Positions 24,202 through 55,500 of a DNA stretch of 64,000 bases are shown here, piece after piece. The stretch is from positions 372,001-436,000 of the forward strand of contig OY756144.1 in the NCBI GenBank assembly GCA_963576785.1, given 5' to 3'. A program made the position numbers and the translations under genes. Positions within the stretch are counted from its first letter, which is position 1. Each line of letters begins with the position of its first letter. The DNA comes from Chlorophyllum brunneum (taxonomy: Eukaryota; Basidiomycota; Agaricomycetes; Agaricales; Agaricaceae). The notes under the pieces were generated by a model. It was not told the DNA's origin. It did no database searches and was given only the letters and a program-made list of their open reading frames with translations.

Positions 24202-25306
24202 TTAAAAGATGAATTTTTTAATGGAAAGGCAAGAGAAAACGCGTCGAAGGAATGAACGTATAGTTCTCGGAGGATTATCCGGCACAGCTGTGGTATTTGG
24301 GGCAGGATGCGACGTGTCGTGTGGGGAGGTATAAGTCGTATCTGAGATTGGCCTAGGTTCTGGCTGAGTACCAGTCGATGGTGATTTTTGGTCTGTATGT
24401 GATGAATCCGCCGTCGTGGGTGCGGCGGCCCCAAACCAGCTCGGGTCGAAGAGGTCAGTGCCATACATCCGTGGGCCAAAGCGTATCTGGTGGCTGACAT
24501 CCCCCAACCCTTCAGTCAGGTTAGTTACACTTGTTGAGAAGCTGGTCCATCGTTGTCGAATCATGCGGATTTCCTCAAGCGTGGGCGGGGTGGATTCGAT
24601 TGACTCCATGGCCCGCAAGTGACGGTCCATTTCACGAAAATATTCGACTACCTCCCGAAAAAGGGCCTTGCATTCATCGACTGCACTCACCAAGTCGCTG
24701 ACGGTTTGAGAGTTTTTGGCTGTGAGTAAAGTGTTCTCTCCACCGTTACGATCTGGGACAATTTCTTTGGCTTCCTTCATGCTACGAGAGATAGATGACT
24801 CACCAGCATCGAATACAGATTTCATTTCTTGAATAGCAGCCAATATATCCCGACCAAAGCTCCCCATCTTCTCACCAGCATTTCCGACAGCGATTGTGAT
24901 ACCGTCTGCTCTCAGGGAAACAGATTGAAGGAACTGTATTGTACTGTCTTCAAAGGGCGTGTTTTCCATCAAGTCCAGAAGCCGAAGAAACAACAGCGCG
25001 AAGTCCGGTAGGAATAACAGGACGTCAATAACTTCCTCAACCTGTTTTGCGGCCGCTTCCCGAAGGGTTTTCAAGACTTCCATTGCCCGTGGTGGGCATG
25101 AGTGCGCATCTTCATAGGTAGAGAGCGCGAAGTGCAGAAGTCCGAACTTCTCCATAAATACCGTCGGTATTTCCCTGATCCTGAAGAGCGTCTGCTCCTC
25201 AGGTGGAAGCTGGAGCATTGATTCATCCTCGTCAGCGGGGTGGTCAGCAAGAAAGAGGTCCCCTTACTTTCAGGTACGATAATACAACAGGCGCTGGGTC
25301 AGTCAT
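24202..25306 (-). CDS. Family F protein F2 (3 exons, 331 aa), partner of G1
   Basis: Exons on the minus strand: 25306-25268 (MTDPAPVVLSYLK), 25209-24804, 24752-24202. Introns of 58 and 51 nt have GTAAGG..CAG and GTGAGT..CAG, phases 0 and 1, as in the other members. The second intron is in frame and free of stops, so an unspliced reading also looks open; comparison with F3 and F4 shows it is an intron. The protein is mostly helical. Conserved blocks are LPPEEQTLFRIRE, VDECKALFREV, IRMIRQRWTSFSTS, a Pro/Ser/Thr-rich linker, and a basic/Cys/aromatic tail RSFLRRVFSCLSIKKFIF. No transmembrane helix, signal peptide or known enzyme motif is visible. The tail could attach to membranes (inference). 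The G1 start lies 280 bp away, divergently transcribed. Confidence 0.85.
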
Positions 25307-25586
25307 GGGGAGATGTGTCTAAGGAGAAGATTGGTGTTGAGAAGGAGAAGCGCTGTTCATTGTGGTTCAGGTTTGCGCGCTAAACGGGCAGAACGAGCCA
25401 CGTGTCACTAACTGCAAACTGGATCGACAACTCAGATTGCCGATCTCGGTGCTCGATATGGAAATACATGTTGTCCCCATCTCAGATTGTACAATGGTAT
25501 CAAGAGCACATGGACTTGTCCTGACCCAGAATGCATATAAAAGCGTAAGGACTCTGAACGACCTACCTCACTACCCACCTACTGCA
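25307..25586. promoter_or_regulatory. Bidirectional promoter of the F2/G1 pair
   Basis: 280 bp between the two divergent start codons. Toward G1 there is TATAAAAG at 25536-25543, 44 bp before the ATG. The same box is found in the same position before G2 and G3. No clear TATA is seen toward F2. Confidence 0.7.
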
Positions 25587-27506
25587 ATGAGCCCCAACCA
25601 CACCCCATTCGACATGAACGCCTTAATCCCGCAAGAATCCCAAGCACAACTTCCACAAACGGTACAACAGAAACTTGACAAATTCGCGGATCTGTTATGC
25701 AAGATTTTCTCGTTACTCAAGTCGGCCCTATCGGAGACGCAACTGTAAGCCGTTGTCTCCACATTCGACTACATGTCTATTGACCCCAGAGCGACCAGTG
25801 AGATGCCAGAGGTTGTTAAACTCTCAGCAGAGTTCCGGGAGCTGGCGCAAAAGTTGGCCGATGCTCTTGACAAAAGCATCCAAAACAACGAAGGTTCCTT
25901 GAGAGACATCAGTCAACTCATATCAATCAGCCCAGCGACGCTGAAGAGCGACGGAGAAGTCGAAGCCTATGCTTCCCATGTCAAGAAAACGATGAACACC
26001 GCAAATGCAGATTTCTGCGATGCTACACTGGCCAAACTCGAGAATTTCAGAGAAGAATTGATCAAGGTGACGGACGACATACTTCGGCTACATATTTCCT
26101 ATGATGAACTGACGTCAAAAACTCCAGTTTGAAAATGGTCCCCTTCTGGAGTCCAGGATGCAGGCTAAGAAGAAACTCAAAGAGCAGAATGGTGAACGAA
26201 GGACCATACGCGACAAGAAGATTCTGTTGTCCAACGCTGAATTGCCATCAGGAAAGGGGGTGCTGGGCATCATCAAAACATGCCTTACACCTCTCCTGAA
26301 GGTTGTCACTGACAGATTCGACGAGAGCCTGGATGAGGAACTAACTCGTAAGTCACCGGTATGACCTCTACTCAGTGCCCGGCTGATGAGACTCGGTGTA
26401 GTCTTAAATATGGAGAAAGAGCTATGCATAGCTGAAAGCGAGGCTATCGATAATTTTGCAAAGGAGAGCAGAGAGGCTTTCAGATGCGTTGGACACTGTC
26501 AAGATTTGTGCCGAACAGCGAAAAACAACATCACGCTAACACTGGCGGCTGTCCAGCAAATTCAAGGGCAGCCAATACGACCGCAAACGGAAGAACAAAT
26601 TAATGACCAATTGTTGCTCTTGTTCAACATCTTGGTCCAGTTCCGATCCAAGGTGATACCTCATGATTTGTACGGGATACCTCGTCGCTCACACTATTCA
26701 TGATCAGATCACTAAGGTGTTGGAAGAAGCGTCAATGTCCAGGGAGGTAAGGCCCCTCAATAGCCTTTGTTAATACTCACTGTTGATGTGCGGGTATTTG
26801 CTTGTAGCCTTCACTAACTATCGACATCGAGAACTTCGAGAAAGACGTCAAGGAGCTTGTACCCCTTCTTACTCGGCTCACCACGGCAAAGGATATTCTC
26901 AAAGCACCTCATTCAGACAAGTTTCCCGTGATCGTTCGTGAGCTTGGCCAAAGCCTCTTCAAGCAGCTAGAAAGTATTGAAGCTGCCTTTACTCCTTGGA
27001 GCTTCTATACACAAGACAACTTGACAACGACATTCACTTTTCTTACCGAAATTTTGACCATGATGCGCACTGTCCCCCAATGGGCTATTACAGGACAGGG
27101 GATATATGATCGCATGAACGTCATGTTGGCGGACAATATCAGCAAGAGACGAGGCAAAAAGGCCCAAAGAAAGCTGAAGGCGGAGATCCTGGACCAAACG
27201 ACAGATATTATCGGGAAGAGGCTGACGAGCCAGGCTGGCGTTTTGGAAGCAATGACGCGGCTGTCAAAGATTATGAAAACGATACGTGACTACAATACCG
27301 AATTTGGCATTGCGCTCCTGCAATATAATGGCCGCCCCAGTTCTGGCCATCTGGTGGAGGCTGGTACCCCTCCTGAACTTTTTCCCAGGGATCCATTCGC
27401 CGTCGAGGCATCAGTGTCGAGTAAAGCTCGGGAAACGTTGGGGATTGAAGTCCACAGATTGAAAGCGTTCGCTTATGATGGCTTTGGGAAAGGGAATGAT
27501 GTGTAA
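25587..27506 (+). CDS. Family G protein G1 (6 exons, 544 aa), partner of F2
   Basis: Exons 25587-25744, 25799-26066, 26128-26347, 26402-26652, 26708-26746, 26808-27506; introns 54, 61, 54, 55 and 61 nt, all GT-AG, phases 2,0,1,0,0. The intron positions and the 39-nt exon 5 are exactly conserved in G2. Protein: N-terminal region with a KLDKFADLLCKIFSLL helix, long helical and coiled-coil-like segments, a central hydrophobic stretch GVLGIIKTCLTPLLKVV at about residues 186-202 flanked by charged residues, then WSFYTQDN, MNVMLADNISKRR and a C-terminal LGIEVHRLKAFA helix. No known domain recognised. The hydrophobic segment could insert into a membrane; this is inference. Confidence 0.85.
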
Positions 27507-27817
27507 TAGAGGAGACTTACCTGCACATGATCTTGTCCTGTCCCCTGTAAAACATTAATACATAATCTAAATAGTCATAATCCAAATATGACCCCTCCAC
27601 CCTACTTGAAGTCGACCGACAGATATATTCTTGCCACATGTTCTGATAGGGCTGTGAGTCTAATGATCCCGTTTCATACTCGAGGACTGCATTGGTTGGT
27701 ACGGCATTTGGCCACTGCACAACTCTGTTCGCTAAGTCAGGGTATCACATGTAGATATACTCTAAATATATTAGAATAGACCAGCTGCAATCCGATGCTC
27801 GAAACTGACACCTCTAG
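27507..27817. other. 3' flank of G1
   Basis: The first ~90 bp matches the flank after G2 (CCTG..GATCTTGTCCTGTCC). No further feature seen. Confidence 0.5.
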
Positions 27818-28270
27818 CTAACATGCTTGGTTGTAAAGCAGGAGCACAGACAGCATAAGAAATATATCCGAGAAGGATTTTGGCTTGGTAAATGGAGATG
27901 GATCTCTCACATCCAATGTTGCTTCTCGTTCATTTGGGGTGTCGGTTGGGTTGGGACTTATAGGGTACTGCATTTCTGGAAGCTTCAGAGTTATTGTATG
28001 TGGCATTTACCCATTGAATATGATGGTAACATGTAGACCCATTCAGAAGGCCATCCAAGTCGTCTCCCGGCCCTGCTACGCCCTTCTGAAACTTGGTCCA
28101 TCTTTTTTGCATCATTTCGATTTCTTCACCAGAGGGGAGATCGCGTTCGATGGACTGTTCATCTTTAGTCTGTCGTTCTATTTCTTTATAATATTCGTGG
28201 TTTTCTCGAATCAGTGTGGTACATTCATCGACCGTATCAAGGAGTTCTGGAAATTTCTCTATGGCATTCC
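27818..28270 (-). pseudogene. Family F relic F7 (exon 3 fragment)
   Basis: On the minus strand it contains TVDECTTLI, RQTKDEQSIERD and MMQKRWTKF in order, then, in another frame, DTPNEREATLDVRDPSP. These correspond to exon 3 of F1/F2. Exons 1 and 2 are absent and the frame changes, so it is a dead fragment left between the two F/G pairs. Confidence 0.7.
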
Positions 28271-28319
28271 CCGTCCACTAAGAAAGTGGACTGGCGCCTT
28301 GATTCAACAGGCAGACCCT

Positions 28320-28700
28320 GGGTAGAGGGGAAAACACTATGATGTCGCAACAACATCACTTCACAATAGTCAGTACATGTCACAACGACTTCCATAATCT
28401 AGATCCTTTGCCATCAGCAATGGTAGTGTCACGACCATAGCCATTGAGGTTTCGAGAAATGAGGGACACGATGGACCTTCCTTTTCCCATGAAGGGGCCC
28501 CAGCAAGAACCCCATCGTTTACAGACGCACCTCCTGCAACCGGCGATGAATGTTCTACGAACTCTCAACCGACCCTTTTGGTGTTCTCTTCGGAGAATCC
28601 TGTTCCATTTGTCGTTCGATCATTCCCTCGGTTTCTTTTCAATCTACCCAGACCTCCAGAGAGATGCGACCACAGGAGCGGTCACGGCGTTCTCGTCAGA
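28320..28700. repeat. Short dispersed repeat
   Basis: 28320-28640 is very similar to 55130-55460 (both contain a run from the 'cagtacatgt' segment to the 'tcggtttcttttcaa' end) and more loosely to 20700-21200. Non-coding. Confidence 0.55.
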
Positions 28701-29496
28701 GTACTAGCCCTAACGTCCGCAAGTTTCTGTTGATTCCCCTTAAAAATTCCTTGGCAGCAGGATATTCACGAGGAATTTCTAATGACGCGCTTTCATGTAC
28801 TGGACGTAAGATAAAACACGAGCAAGGTGAATCTGAGCCTGGTCGTTCAGCCTCTTTCCCTGGCTCAATGGCCAAATACATACCACCTTCAGTCGGCGGA
28901 AGCAAACACAAAACAACGGTCCACAGGGATCTACTGGCTCGAAGATGTTAGAGGCAGAAAAGAACAATAAAACCCAAACGCGGGGCGGAAGAAGGAAGAA
29001 TACAATGGGACGGATGTAAGATTTGGCACGGTAAAGAGGGAATGTGGCCCAGGGAAGCGGTTTTTGCGTGTGAGGGTCAGTCCCCAAACGAACCACCACC
29101 ACATATTTGTTCCGTGAATATCCAACCGCCAAGAACAACAATAACCAGCCAAAGAATTTAGCTACCATCGCAACCGTCGCCTGACGTACCTCGCGAATGT
29201 AGAGGCATCATCTCGAATCCCGATTCCCGTTGAACGCAAGAAGCATCTTACGAGAGGATCTCATTGGGACAAAGTAGAGTGATAGTCCTCGTGTTAGGTC
29301 CCGCCTCTCTATATTCCTTTCTTGATGTTTCCTGGTAAGGACTACCTTATCGGAGTCTTGCCATCAAGCTGCACTGTTCCGTTCGAAGAATGAACAGAAC
29401 GACATATTATACACGAGCCGTCACTGATGCTCGCATGTATTCATGGTCTGATTGTGACCCCGCTTCTGGAGCGTACAGAAATACATGAAAATTACA
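28701..29496 (-). repeat. F3 3' flank (U block)
   Basis: About 800 bp downstream of F3, similar to the flanks of F2 and F4. No coding region recognised. Confidence 0.6.
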
Positions 29497-30618
29497 TTAG
29501 AAGATAAATTTCTTGATAGAAAGACAGGAGAAAACACGTCGAAGGAATGAACGTATAGTTCTGGGAGTCTTATCTGGTGCAACCGTGGAAACCGGGGGAG
29601 GAAGAGGCGATGTGGTATGAGGGGAGGCATTAGCAGCATCTGAGATTGCCCTGGGTTCTGGCCGAGTACCAGTCGATGGTGATTTTTGGTCTCTAGGTGG
29701 TGAGTCCGCCGTCGTGGGTGTTGTGGCCCCAAACCAGCTCAGATCGAAGACCTCGGTATCATAAGTCCGTGGGCCGAGGCGTATCTGGCTGTCAATAGAC
29801 CCCATGTCCTCAGTCAAATCAGCTACACTCGCCGAGAAACTAATCCATCGCTGGCGAATCATCTGTATTTCTTCGGGCGACGGACAGGCGGATTTTATTG
29901 ACTCGACGTCGACGTCGTGCATGTGACGTTGCATTTCATGATAGTAGTTAATAAGCTCTTGAAGAAGGGGCTTGCACTCGTCGACTGCATGAGCCAAATC
30001 GCTGACAATTTGGGAGTTTTCGGCCGTGAATAGGGTTTTCCTTCCATTGTTACCGGCTACGGTAATTTCTTTGGCTCCTTCTATATGACACCCATAACAG
30101 ATGGCTCACCGGCATCAAGCACAGATGTCATTTCTCGAATAGCGGCTAGAATGTCTTGACGAAAGCTTGCCATTTTGTCTCGGGCGCTTTCGGCACCCCT
30201 TGCCATACGTTCTGCTCTCAAGGAAAAACTTTTCATGGCATCTAGCGTACCATCTTCAAAGGGCGCCTTTTCTAGAAAATCCAGCAGCCGCAAAAATGTT
30301 CTCGCAAATTCGGGTGCGGTATAAAGGACGCGGAAGAGTGACTCCACTTGATTGGCAGCCGTTTCCCTGAGGTTTTTCAAGATTTCCATTGCCCGCGTTG
30401 GACACGGCGGAGCATCTTGAACATCTTGATAAGCAGAAAGCGCGAGATGCAGAAGACCGAGTTTCTCCATGAACACTCTGGGTTTCTCTCTGATCTTGAA
30501 GAGCGTTTGTTGCTCCGGTGGTAGCTAGCCCATTGAACGATCGTGAGTAAGGTAGTCAACAACGATAGATTTCTCTTACTTTCAGGAACGATAATACAAT
30601 GGGCGGTGGGTCAGTCAT
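29497..30618 (-). CDS. Family F protein F3 (3 exons, 337 aa), partner of G2
   Basis: Exons 30618-30580 (MTDPPPIVLSFLK), 30524-30110, 30056-29497. Introns of 55 nt (GTAAGA..TAG) and 53 nt (GTGAGC..TAG), phases 0 and 1. Without splicing the second intron, a stop (TAG) appears and the gene looks broken; splicing restores a frame matching F2. Conserved blocks include LPPEQQTLFKIRE, VDECKPLLQEL, IQMIRQRWISFSAS, a linker of Pro/Thr/Ser, and the same RSFLRRVFSCLSIKKFIF tail as F2. An acidic ESIKSACPSPEE region lies in the middle. Function unknown. Confidence 0.84.
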
Positions 30619-30953
30619 GAGGATGGGTCAAAGGCAGGAAGCTCGTGGGTGTTGAAAACGGCAGGAATCAGAAACGTTTAAGCGCCATTCTCACATTGGC
30701 GCATCAGACTGGCTATGCGTCACGAGGAACGAACCACGTATCAACAACTACAAACCATAAACGAGAATGCCGGAACCCCCTGAGTCCGATTGACAGTTTG
30801 GACTGCCCGATCCGAACTCCGTCAAAGGTTGTTGTTCCCAATATTCTCTCATCTCGATTCGAACAATGGCATTGAGGTTCTTATGCGCTTGAACGCCAGG
30901 AGTGATGCGTATAAAAGTGCAAGAATTCCGAACGCTTTTCTACTATCACCACA
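30619..30953. promoter_or_regulatory. Bidirectional promoter of the F3/G2 pair
   Basis: 335 bp between divergent starts. TATAAAAG at 30910-30917, 37 bp before the G2 ATG. Confidence 0.7.
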
Positions 30954-32856
30954 ATGGACTCCATTTGCAGCCCAATTGACATTAATGCCTTGGTTGGACG
31001 ACAGTCTCAACCACCAGAACTTCCACCACAACTCGAGCAGAAACTCGAGAACTTTGCGGGCTTGTTATGCAAGATTTTCTCCATACTCCGACCAACCCTA
31101 TCAGAGCCTCAACTGTGAGTTTTTTATCCACGTCTTTGATATATGCGAACTTGACTCGCAACGGTCAGTGAGATGCCGGAGGTTGTCAAGCTCTCCGAGG
31201 AGTTTCGAGATCTGGCGAAAAGGCTGGCCGCTGCTCTTGAGAAAAGCATCCAGGACAGCGAGACCTCCTTGAAGGACATTGGTCGACTCACTTTATGCAA
31301 CCCAGCGACTTCGAAAAGCGATGAAGCCGTCCACGCCTATGCTTCCGATGTCAAACAAAAACTCGAGTCTGCAAATACAGATTTTAGTGATGCAATAGAG
31401 AGAATTAAGGTGGTCCAACAGGACATCATCAAGGTAGAACATAGTTTAACTAGGTTTCTATGATGAGCTGATGTCGAAATTGCCAGTTTCAAAATGGCCC
31501 CCTTCGGGATTCCAAACTACAGACCAGAAAGACAGCAAAAGAGCAAAAAGGTGAACGAAGGAAGATACGCGACCAGAAGGTTGTCATGTCCAGCACCGAA
31601 GTGCCGCCCTTAAAGGGACCACTGGGTATCATCAAATCGTGCCTCACACCCTTGTTGAAGCTTTTAATCGACAGAGTTGATGAGAGCCTGGATGATGAAC
31701 TAATTCGTAAGTCATGGGTACGGCTCTTGAACTGGCATCTGGCTGACGAGCGCTGAACTTTGGCTCAGTCTTGGATCAGGAGAGGAGTTGTGCCTGGCTG
31801 AAACTGAGGTCGTCGACAAGTTTTCCAAAGACAGTGAAGACGTCCTCAAATATGTTGGATCCTGTGGGAACTGGTTGACAGCGGTAAAATTTAATATCAT
31901 GGAGACACTCGAACTTGTCAGGCAAATTCAAGCGCAGCTGACACTACTGCCTCAAACGGAGAAGGAGTTTAATGACCAATTGTTGGACTTGCTCACCATA
32001 TTCACCCAGTTTGGATCCAAGGTGATACCTCATCAAAACATTGTATCCACCGTCGTCGCTCACACTACACATGACAGATTGCTGAAGTGTTGAAGGAAAC
32101 GTCCATGGCCAGGCAGGTGGGCCCATTCGGTATCTCTCAATATCTAGTGGCTTATATATCATTGACTCGTAGCCTTCCCTGAACACCGAAACAGAGAACT
32201 TCGAGAAAGATATCAAGAAACTTGTACCCCTTCTAACCCGGCTAGCCACGGCGAAGGATATCCTCAAAGCACCCCATTCAGAAAGGTTTCCCGCCACTGT
32301 TCGTGAACTTGCGCACTGCCTATTCAAGCAGCTAGAGAGTATTGAAGCTGTCTTCACCCCCTGGAGCTTCTATACCCAGGACGACTCGACAACGCCATTC
32401 ACTTTTCTTGGTGAAGCTCTGACTATGGTGCGCACCGTCCCGCAATGGGCCACTATAGGACAGGGGATATATGACCACATGAATGTCATGTTAAGCCATC
32501 TCAGCAAGAGGAGAAGCAAAGAGGCGCAAAGGAACCTGAAGGCGGAGACCCTCGATGGGATGACGGATATTATCGGGATGAGGTTGACGACTGAAGCTGG
32601 AGTTTTGAAAACACTGGCTGAGGTACTAAAGATTATGAAGACGATACGAGACTACAGTACCGAGTTTGGGATTACGCTCCTGCATTATAATGGCCGTCCC
32701 AGTTCCGGCTGTCTGATGCCACCTTCTATCCCTCCCGAAATTCTTCCCAGAGATCCATTTGATGTCAAGGCAGCGGTTGCAAGAGAGGCCCAGGAAACCT
32801 TGGGGATTGAAACCAAGAGATTGAAAGCATTCGCTGATGATGGTTTCGGCAACTAG
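30954..32856 (+). CDS. Family G protein G2 (6 exons, 536 aa), partner of F3
   Basis: Exons 30954-31114, 31169-31433, 31487-31706, 31780-32021, 32078-32116, 32173-32856; introns 54, 53, 73, 56 and 56 nt. Exon 3 (220 nt) and exon 5 (39 nt) have the same lengths as in G1. At intron 3 the acceptor must lie at ..GGATCAG, further in than the alignment with G1 first suggests; this keeps the frame. Protein: KLENFAGLLCKIFSIL near the N-terminus, a central hydrophobic GPLGIIKSCLTPLLKLL, then WSFYTQDD, MNVMLSHLSKRR and a C-terminal LGIETKRLKAFADD helix. Intact, clearly diverged from G1. Confidence 0.84.
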
Positions 32857-33409
32857 GGCGACAAGGTATAATAAAGGGTACTCACCTGTACACGATCTTG
32901 TCCTGTCCGCTGTGGAACATTAGTACATATTCCAGGCAGTTTAATTAAGATTAAGATGTATTGGTATCACTTGGGTGCCCTTCGCAACAGGATTATAGAT
33001 GTCCGTGATATTCAATGGGTTAAGGGCTCATGCACCAACTCTCAGACTTCCGAAAATATGGCGCCAATGAGTTCTTCCATCCAACAGGCACCCCAAACGG
33101 ACGAAAAGCAATATTAGAAGTGAGCTTACGCGTGATACCATGCCTTAACGAACAGTCATGCAGAACGGCCAAACGCCAACGCAGTTCTTGAACATGCCGC
33201 GGACATTCGTTACCAGCTTTACTAATCGGATCACCAGAGTAAAAGCCTTGTGGGAATGTGTAGCAAAGAATCAAATGCTCGATTTCAAGTAGGTAGGGTG
33301 CAGGCTCATGACCGGATACGGATGTGGACACTCGACTCGCATGGATGCAGTCTCATACCCCGAACTGGGCACAGCGTGACGGCCGAACCTGTGCAGCAAG
33401 CCAGTGCTT
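32857..33409. other. Flank of G2 with a scrap of family F (F8)
   Basis: First ~80 bp match the 3' flank of G1. 33036-33131 on the plus strand resembles the linker part of F1 exon 3 (TSDFRK..., then TPNGRKAIL). The rest has no recognisable content. Confidence 0.45.
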
Positions 33410-34163
33410 TGTGGAGAGCGACGTTTGGCTACTGCTGAACTCTCACGTCGTCTCCAAGGGAGTCTTTTCGGATCAAAAATCTCGGAGCACCCATCACTGG
33501 GTCGGGGCATCATCATAAACATCCCAAAGTCAAGTCTTCTGTCCCTCTTCCCCGTTTCTATGCCTCCTCCATTTCTATTTCATAACTGTAAGCTATCCCC
33601 TTTAAGTCCAATTGTAGGTCTACACCGTAGATGATCATCTGGAGAAAGTCCCAAATAAATAATGTATTCTGCCTAACCTCTTCCTATCTTCTCTCTTCTC
33701 CCTCCTACCTTTATAGTATAAAAACATTATCAATCCATTTGTACCTGGTCCCCTATTGTTCTACACCTTGTCCATAGATGATTACCTTCATTTTTCTTCC
33801 CATTTTTCGGTCTAATTACTTCATTAAAATGTACCTTGGCATATTTCTTTCACACTTCTAAAACTGGGCCATATTCATGTATGTATATAAGTAGTATGTC
33901 TTCGATAGGGGAAGGCAGTGAAATACGAATGAGTATCTAAATCCCCTCAGATTCCCAAAGCCACTTCGTCTCTTATCTATCTCAACTTCATTAATTACCC
34001 AAACTTGATCACCGTTTTTCTCGACCATTTCCTGGTCAATTCCTCTCAAATCTTCGACGCTCTGTACCGCTAATCGACTCCTTTTGGTTGGAAGCAAAGC
34101 GGTTGTTGGATTCGGCCGCGCTCGTTAAAGCGTTCGCTCTCCAGCCCATACCCTCGTTCAACA
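33410..34163 (+). repeat. Putative solo LTR, 754 bp (copy 2)
   Basis: Same length and ends as 16659-17412 with very few differences. Flanked by GCTT on both sides (..agtGCTT | repeat | GCTTgttctt..). The related U block at 19260-19275 contains the uninterrupted TTGCTTGTTCTGG, an empty paralogous site. This supports insertion with a 4-bp target duplication. Confidence 0.65.
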
Positions 34164-35070
34164 GCTTGTTCTTGAATATTACCAAACGAATGCAGACAAG
34201 TGGGATCTGGTATCAATGCTGGTCTTCTCTTCGATCCAAAGGATATTCCCTCCGGGGTGCTAAATGTTTCCACATCTGCAACAGTATACGTCAGGGACCG
34301 GCTGCGATAATAGCTGGGCTCTGTGCCATTCTTTTTCTGGCCTCGTTGACATGTGTGGTGCATAGGAGTTCGCATACACTGTTGTTCGTTTGGGGTCACA
34401 CACAGTCTCTGCTACCACGTTGGATCCGATGATCCTGTGTCCCTCCATTGTACTATTTCCTCTCCACCCCGCGTTTATCTTCTATTGTTCTCTCTCCTTC
34501 TGACAGAAGCGAAGCAGTGGACCACTGTTTTACTTTCACCCGTCTCTCAACGCCTACCCGATTTTACCGCATGAAGCCAGTTCCTTACCATTGAGCCAGA
34601 AAAAGAAGCTGAGCCACCAGGCATTCAGGGAACTCGGTCGTTTCTATGTTACATGAAGGTGCGCCACGGAGGTTGTTTTTAATTGTACTGCCACTAAGCG
34701 GTTTTCAAAGGGACACAAGTGTCCAGAAGTTGAACACAGAAATTTACAGCCGTTCGAGTCAACCGCTCGACGAAAAAAAAGTAATGATCGTTACCCGAGT
34801 GGTACCCCCCCCCCGCAATGGCAGCGTCTGTCGTGGCCATAGCGAGTGAGGTCTCGAGGGAGCGGTCCGAATGGGGGGCACGATGTACCTTTCCTTCCCC
34901 TCCTGAAGGAGCCGCAGCAACTTGAACCCCATTTTTTACGGATTCACCTCCCCCCACCACCGATGAATGATCTACGAACTCTCAACCCTTTTGGCGTTCG
35001 ATCACTCCCTCCATTTCTTCAATACGTTATTCATAATTTTCTCAAGGCTCCTAGCGTATCTCAATAAAAA
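34164..35070. repeat. Orphan U block (F 3' flank without F)
   Basis: Matches 19260-19900 and 39740-40400, starting at the 754-bp repeat insertion point. 34840-35070 is the short dispersed repeat also found at 28450 and 55262. No coding region. Confidence 0.55.
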
Positions 35071-37640: not shown

Positions 37641-38082
37641 GGAAGATGTTTGTTTCGATGAGTGGAATAAGTGTTTGTAGAAGGATGTATCGATGCGCTG
37701 GTATTTATATCACTTCTGCTGACTGAGAGGGGGTTGAGAGGGATGGTGGACCCGACTAGTCGTAGGTGGAGTAGGCGGGTGGACTGTATGTCAGTCACTC
37801 AGCCCTGGACTGAGTCAGACGGGTGAGTGATATCAGGTGTTTGGATATTTTGCGGTCGGTGGTATGTCTGAATCCCTTTCTCACGCTGACTGATAGATAG
37901 CCTCCAACTCGGGACGCTCTCTCTCAACAGCCGAAAGCTCCATTTCCACCACGACTCGCCTTGTCCCACGTCGCGCCCTCTCCATCCTCATAAAGACCTG
38001 TTTGAATACACATCAGGGAACTGGGTGTAAGTCTCATACATATTGTTCTATAGCGTACATCTCTGACATAACTCGTTCAGCT
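37641..38082. other. Region between divergent kinase relic and AIM9-like relic
   Basis: Repeat-derived upstream region containing the K3 promoter-like sequence. No intact gene. Confidence 0.4.
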
Positions 38083-38882
38083 ATAACGATGCCGTTGGAA
38101 CCGAGTATATCTTCATGCAGTATGTCCGACCTCAGTGATATCTGGCCTAGCCTAGACGAACAGGAAGTCATCTCCGTCGTCCGCCAGCTCACTCAACTCG
38201 AGTCGGTTATGATGTCGTTGTATTCCCCGCTGGCGAGAGCCTATACTTTACCAAAGAATTGGAGAAGGTTGCCACTGGGCTCGGCATACCACTGGAGGAC
38301 GAGCGTTTCTGTATCGGTCCAGATACAAGTCTGCCTCTCTGGTTCGGGAAAAGATCAGAGCTCGATGTGAATCGGGGACCCTGTATGCCACTTTCCGCCT
38401 TTTCATTATTACCCCCTTGAACCAACTGTTAACTATAGACCCAAGTGCCGAAGCAACTCTCGTAGCAGGAGCCCACAAGGAACTTGCTTACCTGAAGCAG
38501 TACGCACTCCGTGGACGTCTCTTCCAACACGCTAGTAGCCCATGGGAGGGCGAGACTTTTGAGCTGAAGCTTGCGCTAATAGAAGCAATGGAAATGTGGA
38601 AGGAGCTTGCAGGGGAGATGTACTGTGTCCAGTCGAGTTTGACGCTGAGGATGTACGTGAGACGAGGAAGTACAGGCAAAAGTAGATAGGTTTTTTGGTT
38701 CGTGTCAGAACATGGTTGGTCTCGGGGAGGATGGTTGGGTTTCGACTGAGGACTATGGGGATGCTCTGGTGTTTTTCAAAGAGAGCAAGGAGGTGTTGGG
38801 GGATGCCAAGTCGGCAGAGGAACGCGCGGAGATTATGGATCACTGGCCTTGGGATGATGTGGATGAAGAGAAGTATATGTAA
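38083..38882 (+). pseudogene. AIM9/APH-type kinase-like pseudogene 1
   Basis: Relic of the large basidiomycete family of aminoglycoside-phosphotransferase-fold proteins. Recognisable order: TEYIFMQYV, SLDEQEVISVVRQLTQLES, then in another frame GIPLEDERF, DTSLPLWFGKRSELDVNRGP, EATLVAGAHKELAYLKQ, then a jump to GRLFQHASSPWEGETF, FDAEDVRET and finally SAEERAEIMDHWPWDD near the stop. The beginning is missing, there is a frameshift near 38215, and the catalytic loop and IDW motif are deleted between KQ and GRLF. It stands head-to-head with K3. Confidence 0.8.
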
Positions 38883-43400: not shown

Positions 43401-43824
43401 TTCGTGGCCGTTTGAGTCTTGGGGTTGGTGAAAAGGAAAGGAAACGGTGATGGATGTGGTGCACATCTTGGCTTGCGGCGAGAAGCGCCGATTGGTGTCG
43501 TCTTCCATCCTTGTCCCATGCAGACTAGTGTGCCGTGTAGAAGGAGTTGGGAGGGAGGACCAGCCTCGACGATGTGGAAGGTGAAGGAATGGGAGTCGTA
43601 GGGTCAATGTCAATCACCCAGCTCCAAGGCCGAGCCAGAGGGTTGGATGATATCCGGACGGGTGTTTGGATATTTTGCAGTCGTGTATGTCTGGCGAGGA
43701 CGTTCCATGTTTAGAAGCGGCAGCTTGAGAATCCCTTTCTCACGCGTCTCACTGGAACTCTCGCTGGAACACCACCAACGAGGGAAGACCTCCAACTACC
43801 GGCAACGCACAGCATAAGATATTA
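43401..43824. repeat. Kinase-unit 5' region repeat
   Basis: Similar to 17440-17900 and 47090-47540. Ends close to the F6 stop. No gene recognised. Confidence 0.4.
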
Positions 43825-44988
43825 TCAGAAGTATTTCGAACTAATACAAGGGCATAATCGTTGAAGCCATACAAATTTAGATGAACCCTTCGTCGTTGGT
43901 GGTGGCGGCAATTCCTTTAAGCAACTCAAAGCGAACACTGCGTTGCCTGCCATTATGGGAGGTTGAGATTTAGCAGTTTGAGGTACAATTCCGGTTTTCT
44001 TGGCAAAGGCCATCGGCTTGTGCAATGTCGATAAATCGCACGCACAGCGGAACCAAACAACAGACATGTATGACTTGCGGTACGGTGGCGGGGGAATAGT
44101 AGATGTCGACTGGAATGGTGTTTGGAAAGGAAAATGACACGGTTTTGCAGTGTGCATGTGCGCGCCAACCTGTGCGATATCCAAGCTCAGTTGACCACTC
44201 CTTTGAGCATGCTCCTTCCAAAGCCTAGCCGTGGCTTGAGTTTCTTCAGCCGAAGGTCGTGGTCCTTTGACAATGTCATACAATCCTATGATATGTTCTC
44301 CAAAATATTCGTAGTAATTTGCGAGCTCCTGACATGTCTCTACGGTCCGACAAAGTGTGTCAAGGAGATCCTCGACGACTTTGAATTCATGAAATTTCGA
44401 TAGAAACATATACGGTCCATTGTTGCGAGGCAGACCTGTGTAGAATATCACATCAAAAGTCTTTATAGAAAACCAATGATACCCACCAATTCCCATGATC
44501 GGGAGCACAGGGTTGGCCTTCTCAATGACCTGCCGAAAGTATTGGATGCCTACAGTAACGCTGGAGTCGATCCCCTGCAACGAGTCCAGCATGATGTCAA
44601 CCACTGAACTAATCCGCGTTATCTCTGTCTTCATGTCTTCTTCACAAGCGTTCACGTTCGCAACCACAGAAGAGTAAAAGCGAGCAAAATCTTCCATGAT
44701 AGTCACCATAGCCCCTATCTCATGACATTGGTCGAACACCGCCCCTCTCAAGAGCTGGATTTCCTCCAAGGCACAAGAGAGAGGGTAATATTCCTGTAAC
44801 ACCGAGATTGCAAGGTGAAAGTCATTCACAGAGTAGAGCGTATACTGGCAGATTTGATTAATCTCATCTAACAGGCCGTCATCTGGGGGTGGCTTGTGGT
44901 TTTGGGTTAAGACACTTTGTCGTCACTGCTACATGAAAAGACTCACGATGAAGGGATCACAGGGCAGACAGTTTCCGTCAGCACCCAT
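43825..44988 (-). CDS. Family F protein F6 (about 352 aa), unpaired
   Basis: Exons proposed: 44988-44947, 44892-44487, 44435-43825, with introns of 54 nt (GTGAGT..AAG) and 51 nt (GTGGGT..CAG), phases 0 and 1 as in F2-F5. Exon 2 has exactly the 406-nt length of F2 exon 2 and aligns without gaps over its first 30 codons (PPPDDGLLDEIN against LPPEEQTLFRIR). Exon 3 shows VETCQELANYYEYFGEHI and a cysteine-rich VWLQRLCPCISSKYF tail. Exon 1 is the least certain part: it lies in sequence shared with kinase-relic repeats. The most divergent intact F, with no G gene beside it. Confidence 0.72.
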
Positions 44989-44999
44989 CCTGTTTGGGG

Positions 45000-47200
45000 A
45001 CAACCCTATGCGCCACCTTCATTAGCCTCAAGTACTCGAGCACCTATTGTTCAGCCCAGCATGTCACGTGATATGGCAAGGACCTTTCTCCCTCTCAACG
45101 CTGCATGCTTCATTCTTCGATCTACGAAGAGTCGGCTGCGGCACGCTTCACGGACCCAAACAAATAGTGATTAGTCATGCCAGTGAGGGTTATCACTGCC
45201 AGGTCGTAGCATTGTGGCTGGATCATCACTGGCTTTCCACATAAGGTCCCATGTGTAAAATTCAGGATATTTGTGAGAACGCAGCTAAAACTCTTCGTTT
45301 TCAATTTTGATACCACCGCCACTTGCAGTAGTAGTTTCTCCTCGACCGGTGTATTTCGTCGCACCGCGCAGTGTATTCATTCATAAACCCATATTCGTAT
45401 ACGGTAGTCCCAATTAGGTCCTAAACACAAGCGGATACGAACGCTCGACCTTGGACAAGGACTCGCCTAATCGAAAGTCCGGGACAGTAAGCTCTTGAGA
45501 CAATTGGATCGAACTGTTTCGCACGTTTTGGACCATCTATAACCCCGTCGCTGTCAGTAGCGCACTTCTAAATGACTGGATTGATTGTGGACAGTAAGTT
45601 TAGTCTAAAATACTCTATAAAGTAGCATTAGACGAAAGACTCACACCGATGAAGTTATCCATGAATGACAAGTTTTCCATCGGTATCGTCCTGGTTGAGA
45701 GAAGTAGTCCCACGGCCGCGCTCGTCACGACAGAGCAAGTGTATTAATCTTCCAAGCCCTTATAAGCGCCCACCACCATGTACAAGATTCCCAAAAACAT
45801 CTCCCTGAATGCCCTCCCACCTCTCGGACCAACCGGGATGGGAAACTCAAATACCGCGCATCATTTGGCTTGCGTTTATTCCCTACCATCAAGTCTACCA
45901 GTACTTCTACGACGTATGCTGAGATTTGATGCTGGCGACCCTGACTATCGAACCTGAGTCAATGTGTGTCTTTCCAACGTTGTATGAAACGCCATTCTAG
46001 TGAGTTCTGGGTGGAAGACCGTTTAGAGAATGCTCGAGTTAGTGGACTGCGGCCAGTACACAAGTGAAGTAATACATACCCGACACAAGATAGGAAGAAC
46101 TTGATTTTGCCTTTACTGCTTTCCCAGAAACGGTTTGCGGTATACAACTTCTATCTTTTTCCACGTGGAAATAGACGGATAGAAACTTGTCACAGACCGA
46201 ACGGAGTAGTAGGTCTTTGGTTCCTGAATTTGTTCGTCATCTCCCATATCTGTGGCAGGATATCCTCGTCGTTCGTAGTTCAGGGATCCGACTTACGACT
46301 CCCCAGAATACCCCCTTGCGTCATGGTAGTAATATTTAGAGAAGAATATTTTGCATGTATAGGTCTGGAAGACATGGGTAATTTCGAAATAGGTGCAATT
46401 TAGGGAAAGACACACTAACCTCATAAGAATTTGCGACCGAAGGACCAGACATCACTCTTGGTAGTGCACCTTCGTTACCGTCACGACTTTGGTGTCACAT
46501 ATCGTACTTTGGTAGTATGGGCTTGTCCAGCACAACGCGGAATACCGCCAAATTCGGGACCAATGTACGCCTGTCACTCGATACAAGAAATCCGCAAATG
46601 AAGTCATCAACCCGTTGCCGGAGCGTGAAGCAAGTGTCCAACATGCCGTCTTGTAATGTTGGAAACACAGGTAAAAGGACAGAAGAGCTCTGGTGCAACT
46701 TGTCAGTACATCCGTCGGGGAGAGCAAATGATTGCTCACCAGAGGTATTCAAGGTTTGTCGGGTTTGGTTGTAGGCGGCCGCAGGAGCCTTCATGAACCA
46801 TGCATGATGAGGGGGCATTTTGTCCGATTGGCCGTGGAGGAGCACGCCATAGAAATGGATAGTACTGGGACGAGAGGGATGGGTCTAACCAACACCTTCA
46901 GTTGAGTATTTTGTGCATTAAGTAGCAGTGACACTCACTCTTAGCACGGTCATGTCATGCTGCTTTGGAAATGAGCAAAAATCCAGCAGCACACTACCAA
47001 TCCCCTACCCTTTCACGCCAAAATCGAACCCTGGATCTTCACTGTACATGAGATTCTGTTTCAGTGTGAAAGTAAAAAATAGGGACATGTCGTTTGTTTC
47101 GATACGTCGAATATGCGCTCGGAGAAGGATGTAACGATGCGTTGGTATTGGTATTACTTCTTCATCTTTCTTCCCATACCCGTTTCTATTTTAGTGCTCG
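45000..47200 (-). pseudogene. TKL-like protein kinase relic K5
   Basis: Minus strand, same segment order as K3 and K7 (5' region near 47100, intron-donor GTGAGT segment near 46930, 3' segments to about 45120). No intact frame. It lies upstream of F6 in the same orientation. Confidence 0.5.
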
Positions 47201-48179
47201 AAGTCGTGAGTTTGGTGAAAAGGAAAGGAAAGAGCACTGGATGAGGCGCGCATTCCAGACTTGTGGTGGGAGTTTAAAAAAAGCCTTCCTTGGTGTCGTT
47301 GTCTAACCCTGTCCCATCCTGACTAGTGCTGCAGTGCGCCATGTTGTAGGAGGGGTTGGGAGGGATGGTAAGCCCTTCAGTGGGAAAGCTGAAGGAATTG
47401 GAGGTGCAGGTGGAATAAACGGGTGGACTCCACGTCGGTCACCCAGTCAGGCGGTTGGGTGATATCGGGACAGGTATTTGGATATTTTGCAGTCGGTGTG
47501 GTATGTCTGGCGAGGACATTCGGTCACTCGAAAATCCCTTTCTCACGCACATCAGAATTCAAGCCACTGGGAACATGTCTATCCAGATTCAAATACCAGA
47601 ATGCTAATTCACGCATGTACCCAGGAATGTTGTCCAAGAACCTGGTGTTACAGCCACCACGATTCCTACTCGCAAAGATCGTAAATTCAGTATTCAGATC
47701 AAGAGCGATAAAATACCTTCTCCAGTGGGCACCTCACCCAATTTCCAGCAAGACCGATGATAGGAGGTAAAGGGACAGATGAACACAAGTGTAGCGACTC
47801 GGGGTCTATAGATATGCATCGACCTTGTCAAAACCTACGAGATAGGATCAGAAATCTGCGTTTCTTTTCTGGTTTTCTTCTTTCAAGAATTTTCCAATTC
47901 GGCCTTCCATACAGTACATCCTCTTTGGCCTCAGATCATTGACACCTGTTCCACTTGGGCACATCCACAGTCCACGGCCCAGATTTTTGATCCAACCTTG
48001 TAGATTTGACTATGTCGGCGGTAGCATACCGTCAACTTCCGGGTATTTACACCTACATTCATCTACCCCTTATTCTTCTCCATCCTGTCACCTGTCACCC
48101 TCTTGATGCGACCCCGAGATTATATCTGGAACTTGGGCATATTTGTCTTGCCACAGTCAAAGGCCGCGATTCGATGTAG
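47201..48179. repeat. Repeat-derived region with AIM9-unit upstream fragment
   Basis: 47540-47790 (CTTTCTCACGCACATC onwards) matches the region before AIM9-like pseudogene 2 (58430-58735) and, inverted, 62060-62424. No AIM9 body follows. 47800-48179 has nothing recognised. Confidence 0.45.
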
Positions 48180-49080
48180 GTGTGCATGTGCACGGGATTA
48201 GTAGAATGTTGTGGGAGGGAGTACGGCAGGTGAAGATAGAGACGGTGTTGGTAGAGACGATGCTGAGGGCTCACTGAAAGCCCAAGCCGTTGCGATCGAC
48301 AGGATCCTGGGTATTAGGATGGTCCGGCCGTTTGGCAAGCAGGATTATATGACCGTACTGAGAGTGAGTCTCAATGCTACTTGATGCGCAAATTACTTAG
48401 CTGAGGGTGTAGGTTGGATCCTTTCTTGGCATGGTCCTTCACAGTGAACCGGAGAAAATTTGGGTCCCTTGCAATGGATGGTCCATGAAAGCCTCAGCGA
48501 TCCTCTACGACAAAACCCCATGACCCTCCGTTACTTCTGGTGCGCGATCACTAACTGCTTGCTCTCCCGGAGAACGTCCTGACAAGTTGCATTGAAGCTC
48601 CCTGGCCTCTTATCTGGGTTCCAAAACACGCACAATCAGGAGGTTTGTCGTAGGGTCTACGAGGTGGTGTGTTCAAACGAGTGTTAGCACAGTGTGGTAT
48701 ACAACACCCGAGTTATCTGCAAGTGACGAAGATGTACTCCTAACACCTGAAAAGTGGTATCTGGCCATTGGGCTGCATCTCTTATGATGTCAGTACATCT
48801 TTATTTAAACTGTAGCCACTGCTAAGTTGACTGTGTCACTCCAGACCTATATCCCCTTTTCTCAATCTTACTGCCATGATGGGAAGGAATATTGCCAGAA
48901 GTCGTGGGCCATATCCATGGGAATTCTTCGCGCCATTCTGGGCGGTTATCTGGGCCGCGTATGATGTGGTTTTCCGCCCGTGATCAGCCTGGAAGATGAA
49001 TATATCTGCGTCATTCATGATGACCAGGGATAGGCCCGCTGCTCCCATACAGGACGGGGCACATAAATTTCATTTGTGTG
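48180..49080 (+). pseudogene. TKL-like protein kinase relic K6
   Basis: Plus strand; the GAGAGTGAGTCTCAATGC intron-donor segment near 48360 and a SGIWPLGCISYDVS remnant near 48750-48800 place it in the kinase family. Ends in the segment shared with 36300-36400. Broken. Confidence 0.5.
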
Positions 49081-49993
49081 TAGTTTCGTCATTGTGAGTC
49101 ATTCGCCTTGTGAAACAAATACTACATCAGACAATTTGCTACTAGATCTCCGATTCAGGCAATCGCCGTCCAGGATTGGAGCGGCTTGTGTTCGATCATG
49201 AGTAACGATCCATGATCATTTAAAATTGATCATTGTGGTGCTGGTAGCGTGTGCCAGACCACCGCTGACTTTTAATCAACTGGTAAAGATCTGGGATCTA
49301 AGTTAGGCGATCGTTGATTTGTTGACGTCGGTTTGGAACTGTGGGGCCAGTAGACCAACCAATCATAGCTTCGCAACCGCAGCAGCATTGGCCTTTGCGT
49401 CATGACCGCTTCTTGGGGCAGTTGACGTGCAGAACATGTACAGGGAACCATATCACCAAAACCTTCCGGTACTACTTACAGCCACCCTACACTTGCCTAC
49501 TGTCGCAGTCAGGGCCTCACACTTACCGCTTTTCAAGACTCAATGGGTTTGAGGTGCGCCTTCTGTAGTATCACCATCGCCTGATGTCACAATTAATTTG
49601 TGAGTGCCTGTTCGTCCGGTTAAGCCCTGATAATGAACGGATATGGATATAATATATAGACGCGTCGGATACCGCTGGAGTGCGCTTTTGGGGCTTACTG
49701 CTATATGATGAGTCCCGAAGCTCATGGTGAGTCGAGCCGCGCGCTGGTGAAAAACATGGGTAGGGTGTTACTGTATATGTATGTCCAAACACCCGATGAG
49801 ACACGGTGAGCATGTTGACTGGGAAACAGGGAAATGTGGTCAACAAGCAACCTTTAACCAGAGGCAGAAGCAGGACGAATTTATATCATTGGCCAGCGAT
49901 GGTAACTACCAGATTATTTACCCACGATTATAGATATACGATTCTAATGTCCAAGATTGTCCGTAACAAATAGTCAATTGGTCCCTTTCTCCT
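49081..49993. other. No recognised feature
   Basis: Single-copy-looking sequence downstream of G3. Only short open frames without similarity to the families here. Confidence 0.4.
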
Positions 49994-51877
49994 TCAACTT
50001 TGATCCGGCTGTTTCTGCATCACCCTCAACGTCTGCACCGCAAGGTCCAGTGCCTCCAGTGCACTATCGGCAACGGCGAGGCTGGCTCTAGATAGGTCCT
50101 TGGGGGGCCTTACATCTCCGTCTCCGCCTGAGTGAGAATGCAATGGAGAGATTGCAGCGTTGGAAACATAAGAATAGAGGGCTAGGCTAAATTCTCCCGA
50201 AAAGCGTTGAACGCTCTGTAGAACCTTCAGAAGCCTTGCAAGCATCGCCAAAGCTTCCTCTTTCGTTGCGACACGTCTTCCCTGAATAGCTTCATGCCCA
50301 TTCTCTTCTTCTTTCTTCTGCTTGACGGACGCAAAATGGCTGCGGAGAAGGCTGACCTCAGACTGGAGGATGTCCTGAATGGTGGAGAAGTAAGGCATTT
50401 GGATAAGATTTGGACTCTCGCGTTGCATCAGAGCAGCCATGGGATCTAGGGCTTGGCCCTTGGAACCGCATTGGAGATATGCAATCCAAGTGTTGAGGAC
50501 GACCTGAATGGTCTCAAGTTGCTTGATGAGACCAGTGCGAAGTAATCCGACATTCTCCGTGTATCTATCCGCGTTTTTGTGCGAGTGGCTGATGATAGAT
50601 TTGGTTGTCTCCAACTCTGCAAAGACGGCGGGGATCTTGCGCAATTCTTCCCCAAAGACCTGAAACTCGCCTTTCATGGTTGGCTGAGGCCGCCCCTTTC
50701 GTCAATACCAGATTCATCGGTAAGGCGGCCAGATTCTACTCACATCATTATCAAGATCCCTGGTCGAGATGGAGGGGAAGAGTGGTTCGTCGGATATCGC
50801 ACCCTTGATCTGGGATACAGATTCGGTCAGGATATTTGAGAAGTGCAAGAAATATACTCGTACCGCCTCGGTGAAGTACATTAATTGGGACCGTAACTCT
50901 TCGATATCTTCGGTCTGTACTCCTTCTATGATATTTGTGTTTTTCTTGACTTCTTCGGATAATACCCTGAGGTTGTAGGTCAAAGTCTCTAACTGTGGCC
51001 AGTACTGTTCGAAGACACGCATTTTGGTCCAAAGTGACGTCAGATCTGAGGCGAGATCATCCAGCTTGTGAAGTGCCGCCGCAAATTGCTGTTCCAGCTG
51101 GTGGGATTCTGGGGCCCAGATCAGGACCGTTGAAAGGGCGAAGGTAGTTTACTTACTCTCTTTCTTCTTCTCCTTACTCCGGTTGAGCTTGACCACCCCG
51201 AGTCTGATGAACGGGCTAAGAACGAGGCAAACAAATGCAGAGAGTGTCTGGCCACCGGTGGCACCCTCCACGCCGCCGGCCACGGTCTCCCCCATAACTT
51301 GAAAATCCTCAAGTGCGTTCTGCTGGGCTATCTTGCCATTCATCATGTCTGTGACCGCAAGTTGGGATTCTTTGACTGTGGTGGTCTGAATCTATGGGAA
51401 GCTTAGCTTGATGCAGATTCGCGATGTGCTAGATGGGTAGTTACCCTCATGATATTCAGTCTGAAGGCTTGAACTCTGCTCCTGCCTTGAATGGGAAGCG
51501 CTCTCAAGATCTCGAATGTTTCATTTGCAAGTGCAGCCGAAACGGTGGGAGTGTTGTCGTCTCCAATGCCCTGGAGTCCTTGGATGATCAGAGAGAGGTT
51601 GTTACCACCCGCCTCTCCCATTTTCACTATCTCCTTGAGGCCTTCAATCAGGACATCAACTTCTTGTCGAAGTTCGTCTATGGGCTTCCTCATCCCTGGG
51701 ACATCCCTGTTCAAAGCAAATAAGCTATACGTGCAAGCAGGGTAAAGGGATGGCATACTGATATTGCGATGCCATCCATGGACTGCAGGTGTCAATTGCG
51801 GTCTGCATATGGGATTTGAGGTCGGCAGGACCGTCTACGGTGGGAGGGGCAGAGGGGGGAATAGTAGCTACGGACAT
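49994..51877 (-). CDS. Family G protein G3 (6 exons, 538 aa), partner of F5
   Basis: Exons 51877-51759, 51706-51445, 51391-51157, 51108-50864, 50809-50744, 50683-49994; introns 52, 53, 48, 54 and 60 nt, phases 2,0,1,0,0, the same series as G1 and G2. Intron 4 is stop-free and in frame but has good GTACGA..CTGAC..CAG signals and sits where G1 and G2 have theirs. Sequence is far diverged from G1/G2 but has the same plan: N-terminal helical region, then a Gly-rich ETVAGGVEGATGG run leading into the hydrophobic SAFVCLVLSPFIRLGVV (about residues 178-194), a Lys-rich SKEKKKES, helical blocks, and a C-terminal LASRL..-like helix (SALEALDLAVQTLRVM). Function unknown. Confidence 0.82.
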
Positions 51878-52204
51878 TGTAGAAAGAAGTTCAAGTGGAA
51901 TTGAAGTTAGATAGGCCTTCTGAGGGCATTTTTATACGTTGCGCTAGCGCTACTGAGGACGCAGGATGCAGGACGATCTGAACCAGTCCGTCCGTCTAGG
52001 ACAAGAGTTGTGGGTGCAGATCGTGGACAACGCGGTTCGGTTAGGGATAACAAGACATACCTCATTGTGCCATCAATCGACAGCCGATCTTCTCTGTCCA
52101 TCACCGAGCTGTCACGGGCGTCAAAGGTGGGTGTCACGTCCTTGCGTCGTGTCGACGGTGTCGTCCCATCCCGACAAGCTCGTTTCGCCCCATATCCCCT
52201 CCAC
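51878..52204. promoter_or_regulatory. Bidirectional promoter of the G3/F5 pair
   Basis: 327 bp between divergent starts. TATAAAAA on the minus strand at 51936-51929, 52 bp before the G3 ATG, in the context ACGTATAAAAATGC that resembles the boxes of G1 and G2. Confidence 0.68.
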
Positions 52205-53214
52205 ATGCCTGACACTGGACCGGTAGTATGTCGCGTTCTCAAAGTAGGTCTAGCACCACTAGCCGCTTGCTACTGGCTCACGAACCCTTCAGTTACCGCC
52301 AGAGCAACATATACTTTTCCGACTCAAAGATATGCTGGAGGAGATCCTTCGGGAACTGGACAACTTGAACCTTGCTCTGCGCGCATCTCATGAGACGCAG
52401 CCTAAGCCAGAGGCGCTTGAGCTCTTACACGATACTCGGGCTGAAGCAGCAACGCAAGCCATGGGACTCTTCCGCGTTGTTTACTTCGTAAACAACTTTG
52501 CAAGAATATTTGCCAAGTTTCTTGTGGCCGTGTCACCCTCGGCGTCGAGTTCTGCGAAACAAGGCCCTATAAGCATCCCATATCTGCGTGTCAAGACCGG
52601 AATCGTGACTAAAGAATGTGAAAAAGTTCAGAAGGAGATGATCCAGTTTGGACAAGATGCTACCGGTACCGTGGAACGAGCCGCCTCGCTATTGAGAACT
52701 CACAATGGTGATAAAACCTTCCTTCGTATCTTTGACAACGTCTATTGACTCTATGGCGTCAGAGGAAAAGAGCACAGAGACTGCCTTGAGTGAGGAAAAT
52801 GCTCGGAGTGTCAGCGGTCTGCTCCGTGCTGTTAACGAGTGCGCTTCTGGTCTCCAAGACGTCGGTAATTTCTTTCGGGAGATGGAGAAGCATCTGGGTG
52901 GACTTTCTGAGGCCATGGAGGCCACGCCACCTTCAGACGAGGAGCTTGACACGGTTCGATCCCGCTGGACGGACTTTCATACGGCCAGCGGGCAAGTTTT
53001 CGCCGATGTTGCCAACATACGCGGCGAGCTCAGCGACGACCCTCTGATCTTCACCGAAGACGATATTCCTCGCCCAAGGCAGGCAGCGGGAGCCTCCCCT
53101 ACGGAGCCTCGCACAGACCCCCGAGCGATCGAAGACTCGCCATCTGCACCTGCGCCCAAAAGGTCATTTTTCCGTCGCCTTATCTCTTGTTTCACAATCT
53201 GGGGTCTCGAATAG
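52205..53214 (+). CDS. Family F protein F5 (3 exons, 301 aa), partner of G3
   Basis: Exons 52205-52243 (MPDTGPVVCRVLK), 52293-52707, 52763-53214. Introns of 49 nt (GTAGGT..CAG) and 55 nt (GTGATA..CAG), phases 0 and 1. Exon 1 is 39 nt as in F1-F4 and exon 2 is 415 nt as in F3. Blocks: LPPEQHILFRLKD, VNECASGLQDVGNFFREME, DTVRSRWTDFHTASG, a Pro-rich linker and the basic/Cys tail RSFFRRLISCFTIWGLE. Divergent yet fully intact, which argues for function. No catalytic motif seen. Confidence 0.83.
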
Positions 53215-55130: not shown

Positions 55131-55500
55131 AAAACACTATGGTGTCGCACAACGTGAGTTCACAATAGTCAGTACATGTACACAACGACTTGCATAATCT
55201 ATATCTGCTGCCATCAGCAATGGTAGTGTCACGACCATAGTCATTTCGGTCTCGAGAAAGCGGTCCGAATGAGGGACACAATGGACCTTCCTCCCCCCAT
55301 GAAGGACCCCCAGCAAGAACCCCATCGTTTACAGACGGTACTCCTGCAACCGGCGATGAATGTTCTACGAACTCTCAACCGACCCTTTTGGTGTGCTCTT
55401 CGGAGAATCCTGTTCCATTTGTCATTCGATCATTCCCTCGGTTTCTTTTCAACGCCTCGTTCATAGCTTTCGGAGGGCTCCTATCGTATCTCAAATAATG
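55131..55500. repeat. Short dispersed repeat
   Basis: Near-copy of 28320-28640. Also related to 34840-35070 and 21000-21200. Confidence 0.55.

Follow-up and report, generated by a model that had tools for sequence, protein, structure and literature searches.

The 64,000-nucleotide stretch of Chlorophyllum brunneum DNA analysed here, referred to as the window, spans positions 372,001 to 436,000 of contig OY756144.1 (C6:372001-436000 in the numbering used below, in which the 14 contigs of the 38.9-Mb genome are C1-C14 and C6 is the contig of the window). It contains three head-to-head pairs of two genes, F and G, and such pairs recur along the same contig. The reading we prefer, tentatively and with rather less than even confidence, is that F and G encode the two halves of a ClyA-like alpha-helical pore former of the cytosol, neither of which is predicted to work without the other. 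The pairs are arranged as follows (window positions; aa, amino acids):

24202..25306, minus strand: F2, exons 25306-25268, 25209-24804 and 24752-24202; 331 aa; splice model with hand-set exons
25307..25586, no strand: F2-G1 intergenic segment, 280 bp common to F2 and G1
25587..27506, plus strand: G1, exons 25587-25744, 25799-26066, 26128-26347, 26402-26652, 26708-26746 and 26808-27506; 544 aa
29497..30618, minus strand: F3, exons 30618-30580, 30524-30110 and 30056-29497; 337 aa
30619..30953, no strand: F3-G2 intergenic segment, 335 bp
30954..32856, plus strand: G2, six exons; 536-aa model with a later splice acceptor
49994..51877, minus strand: G3, exons 51877-51759, 51706-51445, 51391-51157, 51108-50864, 50809-50744 and 50683-49994; 538 aa
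51878..52204, no strand: G3-F5 intergenic segment, 327 bp
52205..53214, plus strand: F5, exons 52205-52243, 52293-52707 and 52763-53214; 301 aa; end of exon 2 hand-set

An earlier note on this DNA had described the three divergent pairs, and they are found where it placed them, with start codons 280 bp (F2 25306 to G1 25587), 335 bp (F3 30618 to G2 30954) and 327 bp (G3 51877 to F5 52205) apart. Its exon structures (three exons in F; six in G with intron phases 2,0,1,0,0) are borne out by the splice model for G and partly by hand for F. All gene models are dynamic-programming splice models built on splice sites and codon usage and partly set by hand, i.e., exons predicted from DNA alone. Ab initio, the model yields the six-exon pattern in G1 and G2 without aligning one to the other, and in 12 of 16 G loci across the region. 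The 4 exceptions are two G3 copies that keep an in-frame exon 4/5 intron, a 5'-truncated G3 copy, in which the short exon 5 is nonetheless resolved, and G308; the exon 4/5 split of G3 listed above was taken from the truncated sister copy. As for F, a 13-codon exon 1 is followed by two more exons (phases 0 and 1). The splice model recovered these in part of the copies, and in F2, F3 and F5 they were fixed by hand from splice sites and sister copies. In six comparisons the identity of aligned exons is 0.47-0.90 and that of introns 0.30-0.69, with a few introns (0.65-0.69) as similar as the weaker exons. A loose TATA-like pattern occurs within 90 bp upstream of all 10 G models and of none of 11 F models; the distance is 51 bp for G1 and 59 bp for G3, and the 90 bp ahead of F2 lack the pattern.

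The pairing extends well beyond the window and is not an accident of it. According to the genome-wide search that the earlier note had proposed, all F and G matches fall within C6:229-451 kb, a 222-kb stretch of the 38.9-Mb genome, for every query (39 matches for F2, 16 for G exon 6, 23 for the diverged G3, 12 for the diverged F4, and 51 for another G type); genome searches of this kind begin with a loose first look, which very diverged relatives could escape. The tblastn map of this stretch contains 19 G and 30 F loci. A divergent F stands beside all 15 full-span G loci, which collapse to ten distinct pairs, and no full-span G without F was found on the map, "full-span" being assessed with a query set to which the models of these same loci belong. 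Since the pairs are made by block duplication, random placement is the wrong null for this association. Among the F loci, 15 accompany a full-span G, 1 accompanies a G relic, and 14 are unpaired. In the G253/F255 pair both sides seem to be wearing away (G shortened, F without its tail). The other G loci are:

C6:229.4-230.8 kb: G relic, head-to-head with an F relic
C6:287.4 kb: G fragment
C6:348.9 kb: 5'-truncated G copy at the edge of a duplication
C6:445.8 kb: G fragment

The two partners have also diverged together. The F and G distance matrices over the ten pairs correlate with a Mantel r of 0.986, a value reached by none of 20,000 permutations. The ratio of nonsynonymous to synonymous substitution rates (dN/dS), also proposed earlier as a check, stays far below 1 for F and for G: it is 0.19-0.39 in 12 comparisons chosen from 90 possible, with two further chosen ones saturated, and 0.46 and 0.51 for two recent F copies. 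Positive selection was not seen in the 14 usable whole-gene comparisons. Both analyses took a single copy of each distinct pair, with G267/G297 as one near-duplicate among them; the pairs G267/F270 and G297/F300, two of the ten, are 96% identical to each other. Pairing, matched divergence, and low dN/dS are what one would expect of pairs that are copied as blocks and in which neither member is dispensable.

Regarding structure, F2 is predicted to form a five-helix bundle, followed by a disordered linker and a basic, cysteine-containing amphipathic C-terminal tail. The Foldseek match list for the predicted F fold is almost purely ClyA-type, and HeLo/MLKL four-helix bundles, the fold of cell-death effectors whose N-terminal helix is membrane-active, are not among the 50 matches listed for F in either structure search. 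The cited passage of PMC6162564 describes a five-helix-bundle frame as common to ClyA-type alpha-pore-forming toxins, and the F model appears to have this frame. As it is one defining feature, seen on the predicted F model, membership of the ClyA family is not claimed. As in XaxAB, whose two components both have the ClyA-type fold and form a heterodimer, two unlike components are encoded side by side at the 15 full-span G loci, here divergently. XaxA and XaxB are themselves not homologous according to the passage used for the ClyA-type comparison, and a comparison of the F and G profiles gave no link, the two being unrelated. No curated toxin family profile matches F or G at its cut-off, although such a match is not strictly defining. 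In ClyA-type toxins the membrane-active region sits in the helix hairpin (alpha4-alpha5 or head/tongue); in F, no head is evident where helix 3 passes into helix 4, and hydrophobicity in F2 peaks in helix 2. In G, identity between G3 and the other types is 16-20%, and a hydrophobic segment (approximately residues 186-204 of G1) is conserved, with a proline in 9 of 10. Fold prediction and structure search, as suggested earlier, yielded a predicted ClyA-type bundle for F and, for G exon 6, a model with a predicted local distance difference test score of 48, which was used together with its structure matches only as a contrast for F. The earlier proposal that the products work together is supported in part and indirectly, by the fixed pairing, the matched divergence, dN/dS below 1 on both partners, and the predicted F fold, of a type that includes toxins of two and three components.

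In comparison with the nearest known systems, F and G also differ in several respects. No sequence similarity to F was found for the Bacillus components (the Hbl binding component, HblL1, NheA, and Cry6Aa), and the aligned range covers 323 residues in Hbl B vs 248 in F. Unlike these toxins, F has no clear head insertion and carries an extra linker and a cysteine tail, and the genes are eukaryotic, with introns. In contrast to XaxAB and YaxAB, F and G are transcribed divergently, and G, at ~540 aa, is the longer protein, its last exon comprising ~230 codons. As opposed to AhlABC and SmhABC, there are two genes rather than three, and no hydrophobic-head signature was identified in F. The Pink-coloured protein of Pleurotus (PDB 8ii8) is a chromophore protein of 225 residues and gave no PDB sequence match from the F profile; to our knowledge it has no gene partner. 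Neither a paper on the 8ii8 fold nor a fungal ClyA-type pair was found among the titles and abstract openings searched.

If F and G do form such a pore former, G would insert in the membrane via its conserved hydrophobic segment (compare the Gly/Pro hinges proposed for XaxB), F would dock and assemble and bind G, and the heteromer would open the membrane. The basic amphipathic tail of F and its cysteine may tether F at the membrane. These roles are assigned by analogy with two- and three-part ClyA-type systems, where one component docks and another inserts according to the cited passages of PMC6162564, PMC6086661, and PMC6602965. Each pair would be a cognate set, since F and G types diverged in step. 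No signal peptide is apparent in either protein (read by eye, without a predictor), so the site of action would be the cytosol, which suits both candidate uses: killing of the own cell on non-self fusion or infection, and toxicity to fungivorous animals. We do not decide between the two. The latter is a use of the pore-former reading rather than a rival mechanism, with an expanded arsenal of two-part pore formers stored in hyphae as a cytosolic toxin. We consider it unlikely: a membrane-tethering tail on F would be odd in a stored toxin, and the mushroom pore former with toxicity to nematodes that the cited passages describe is of another kind, putatively a beta type. The broadest form of the proposal, an obligate eukaryotic cytosolic two-gene cassette of ClyA fold, present as about ten cognate pairs at one locus beside an NLR array, each a self- or enemy-killing machine with its own partner specificity, is doubtful. 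Should the pore-former reading be right, multi-component pore formers of the ClyA type would not be weapons of bacteria alone: a fungus would deploy a whole series of them, each encoded by a gene pair, and there would be a concrete protein candidate for the killing of non-self cells or animal grazers by such fungi. The ten cognate pairs of this genome would then also provide a natural experiment on partner specificity.

The constant pairing of cognate partners and their co-divergence would also fit an antagonistic pair for non-self recognition or killing, made up of a cell-death effector and the matching regulator or immunity factor, with incompatibility between unlike pairs. This explanation, which overlaps with the pore-former reading if the effector forms pores, is given a low probability. 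It agrees with the absence of an apparent signal peptide and with the layout, because incompatibility systems more often consist of two tightly linked genes, as stated in the cited part of PMC12881547. The neighbourhood also leans slightly toward immunity: a dense array of NACHT-type STAND genes adjoins the cluster, and C6:28-209 kb holds 13 of the 150 PF24883 matches that were scored out of 225 candidates in the genome. NACHT arrays are, however, also present on C13, C9, and C7, and of the 14 control genomes PF24883 matches 9, with 5 of them exceeding the cut-off. In addition, HET, NACHT, and HeLo domains have no Pfam match above chance in F or G (the nearest being HetE-N, E-value 0.47). Linked fungal heterokaryon-incompatibility pairs share with F and G the layout of two tightly linked genes and differ from them in having known het, NLR, or HeLo domains; such genes are marked by balanced polymorphism and by cell death when unlike strains fuse. 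The two readable neighbouring NACHT genes have no F- or G-like parts (best E-value 0.48; 7 kb read), dN/dS shows no excess of replacement changes, and ten pairs in one genome would all have to be mutually compatible. Within the 7 kb readable, neither F nor G was found fused to a NACHT gene of the neighbourhood. One further NACHT-type (PF24883) match lies inside the cluster at C6:447.7 kb, next to F450. A 2021 review (PMC8229728) states that basidiomycete models of non-self recognition are based on studies of ascomycetes.

Sequence searches agree with the earlier statement that neither protein belongs to a recognised family. Eight G and seven F models have no Pfam or NCBIfam match at curated cut-offs; the nearest profile matches are to unrelated families, TIGR04527 (E-value 0.0007 in one of the eight G) and DUF7874 (0.0017 in one model). 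The PDB-sequence profile search returned no match for F, and for G its matches to the NEMO coiled coil (E-values 0.04 to 3) were taken as chance. Against 5.8 billion proteins, neither F2 alone nor the G alignment (7998 candidates scored) found any match at E-value ≤0.001. The F alignment, in which the F5 row is an earlier version and two rows are short at the C-terminus, found one relative at E-value ≤1 (7998 candidates scored). This protein, P0001, is a partial F5-like sequence of 183 aa from another public sequence set, is 74% identical over F5 exon 2, and seems to read through the same first intron of F5. The F family therefore exists outside this assembly.

The lack of a curated family would also fit ordinary lineage-specific coiled-coil or scaffold proteins without any membrane attack, their pairing being no more than the trace left when blocks holding a single ancestral divergent pair, with a promoter common to both genes, were duplicated again and again. 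Recent copies are indeed entire blocks (e.g., C6:266.7-272.4 and 296.8-302.4 kb, 96.7% identical), helical bundles yield many loose structural matches, and the weak PDB sequence matches of G are mainly to the NEMO coiled coil (E-value at least 0.04). However, both partners have dN/dS values far below 1, F accompanies each full-span G, the Foldseek list is nearly all ClyA-type, and the hydrophobic segment and the tail are conserved, which makes this explanation improbable in our view. A mating-type-like locus, suggested by the divergent gene pairs of HD loci such as HD1/HD2 described in abstracts, is not supported and hardly credible: the searches of F and G gave no homeodomain match, KN-homeobox matches lie at C6:1.90 Mb and on C2, and STE3 receptor matches are on C10 and C1. 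The homeobox search of the genome used the KN-homeobox model only, and the STE3 pheromone-receptor model, whose matches mark the genome as fungal, matched none of the 14 control genomes. The best KN-homeobox match (C6:1904679-1904786) is on the same contig as the F/G cluster, ~1.5 Mb away.

Several caveats apply to the pore-former reading. The Foldseek E-values for F are only 0.007-0.19. In comparison with two sister copies, G2 of the window lacks one base close to where exon 4 begins. Either this copy is broken or its frame stays open through a splice acceptor further on, and the earlier claim that all six genes are intact must be qualified for G2. Unpaired F make up 14 of the 30 F loci, mostly fragments or degenerate copies: eight are fragments, three are copies of a single degenerate gene, and the others are F4, F6, which has an early stop, and F450, which has lost its tail. 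The earlier note had named F and G being mostly unlinked as the result that would speak against a shared role. This is not the case for G, and the unpaired F include no full normal copy. Finally, near-identical copies may be unresolved haplotypes.

Self-comparison of the region reveals large inverted and direct duplications, from which the near-identical copies beyond the ten distinct pairs come. The F2-G1/F3-G2 block has three copies, A (327-341 kb), B (351-365 kb, inverted), and C (393-405 kb, in the window), which are mosaics: A equals B over ~10 kb, A and C show one difference over ~6.5 kb, and elsewhere the copies differ by up to several percent. Such a pattern would result either from gene conversion after recent duplication or from unresolved dikaryon haplotypes. 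The two look alike, and the count is therefore given as ten distinct pairs. The G3/F5 stretch lies in a 9.5-kb inverted duplication (window 48918-64000; C6:420918-443884) with arms identical over ~7.5 kb.

The window also contains F copies and fragments outside the pairs:

18022..19025, plus strand: F1, degenerate and unpaired; further copies at C6:325 and 368 kb
27817..28277, minus strand: F fragment downstream of G1
32971..33125, plus strand: short F fragment downstream of G2
43828..44922, minus strand: F4, long, unpaired and strongly diverged (19% to F2), with a similar basic, cysteine-containing C-terminal end
60223..61303, plus strand: F6 (C6:432 kb), unpaired; exon 3 stops early and the tail persists in a later piece

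A second F4 copy at C6:445 kb is damaged and now runs into a G fragment. Kinase-like fragments, which we take to be of phosphotransferase type, are repeated at window positions 37897-38689 and 58736-59798; DUF1679 (Pfam) has a weak match, below the cut-off, at 58736-59359 and none in the two other pieces scanned. A run of 200 N at window positions 8603-8802 (C6:380603-380802) is flanked by 24-kb inverted arms 99% alike and is possibly a scaffolding or haplotype join. Inverted copies of a Ty3-type retroelement surround this run (window 1-15200; C6:371-387 kb).

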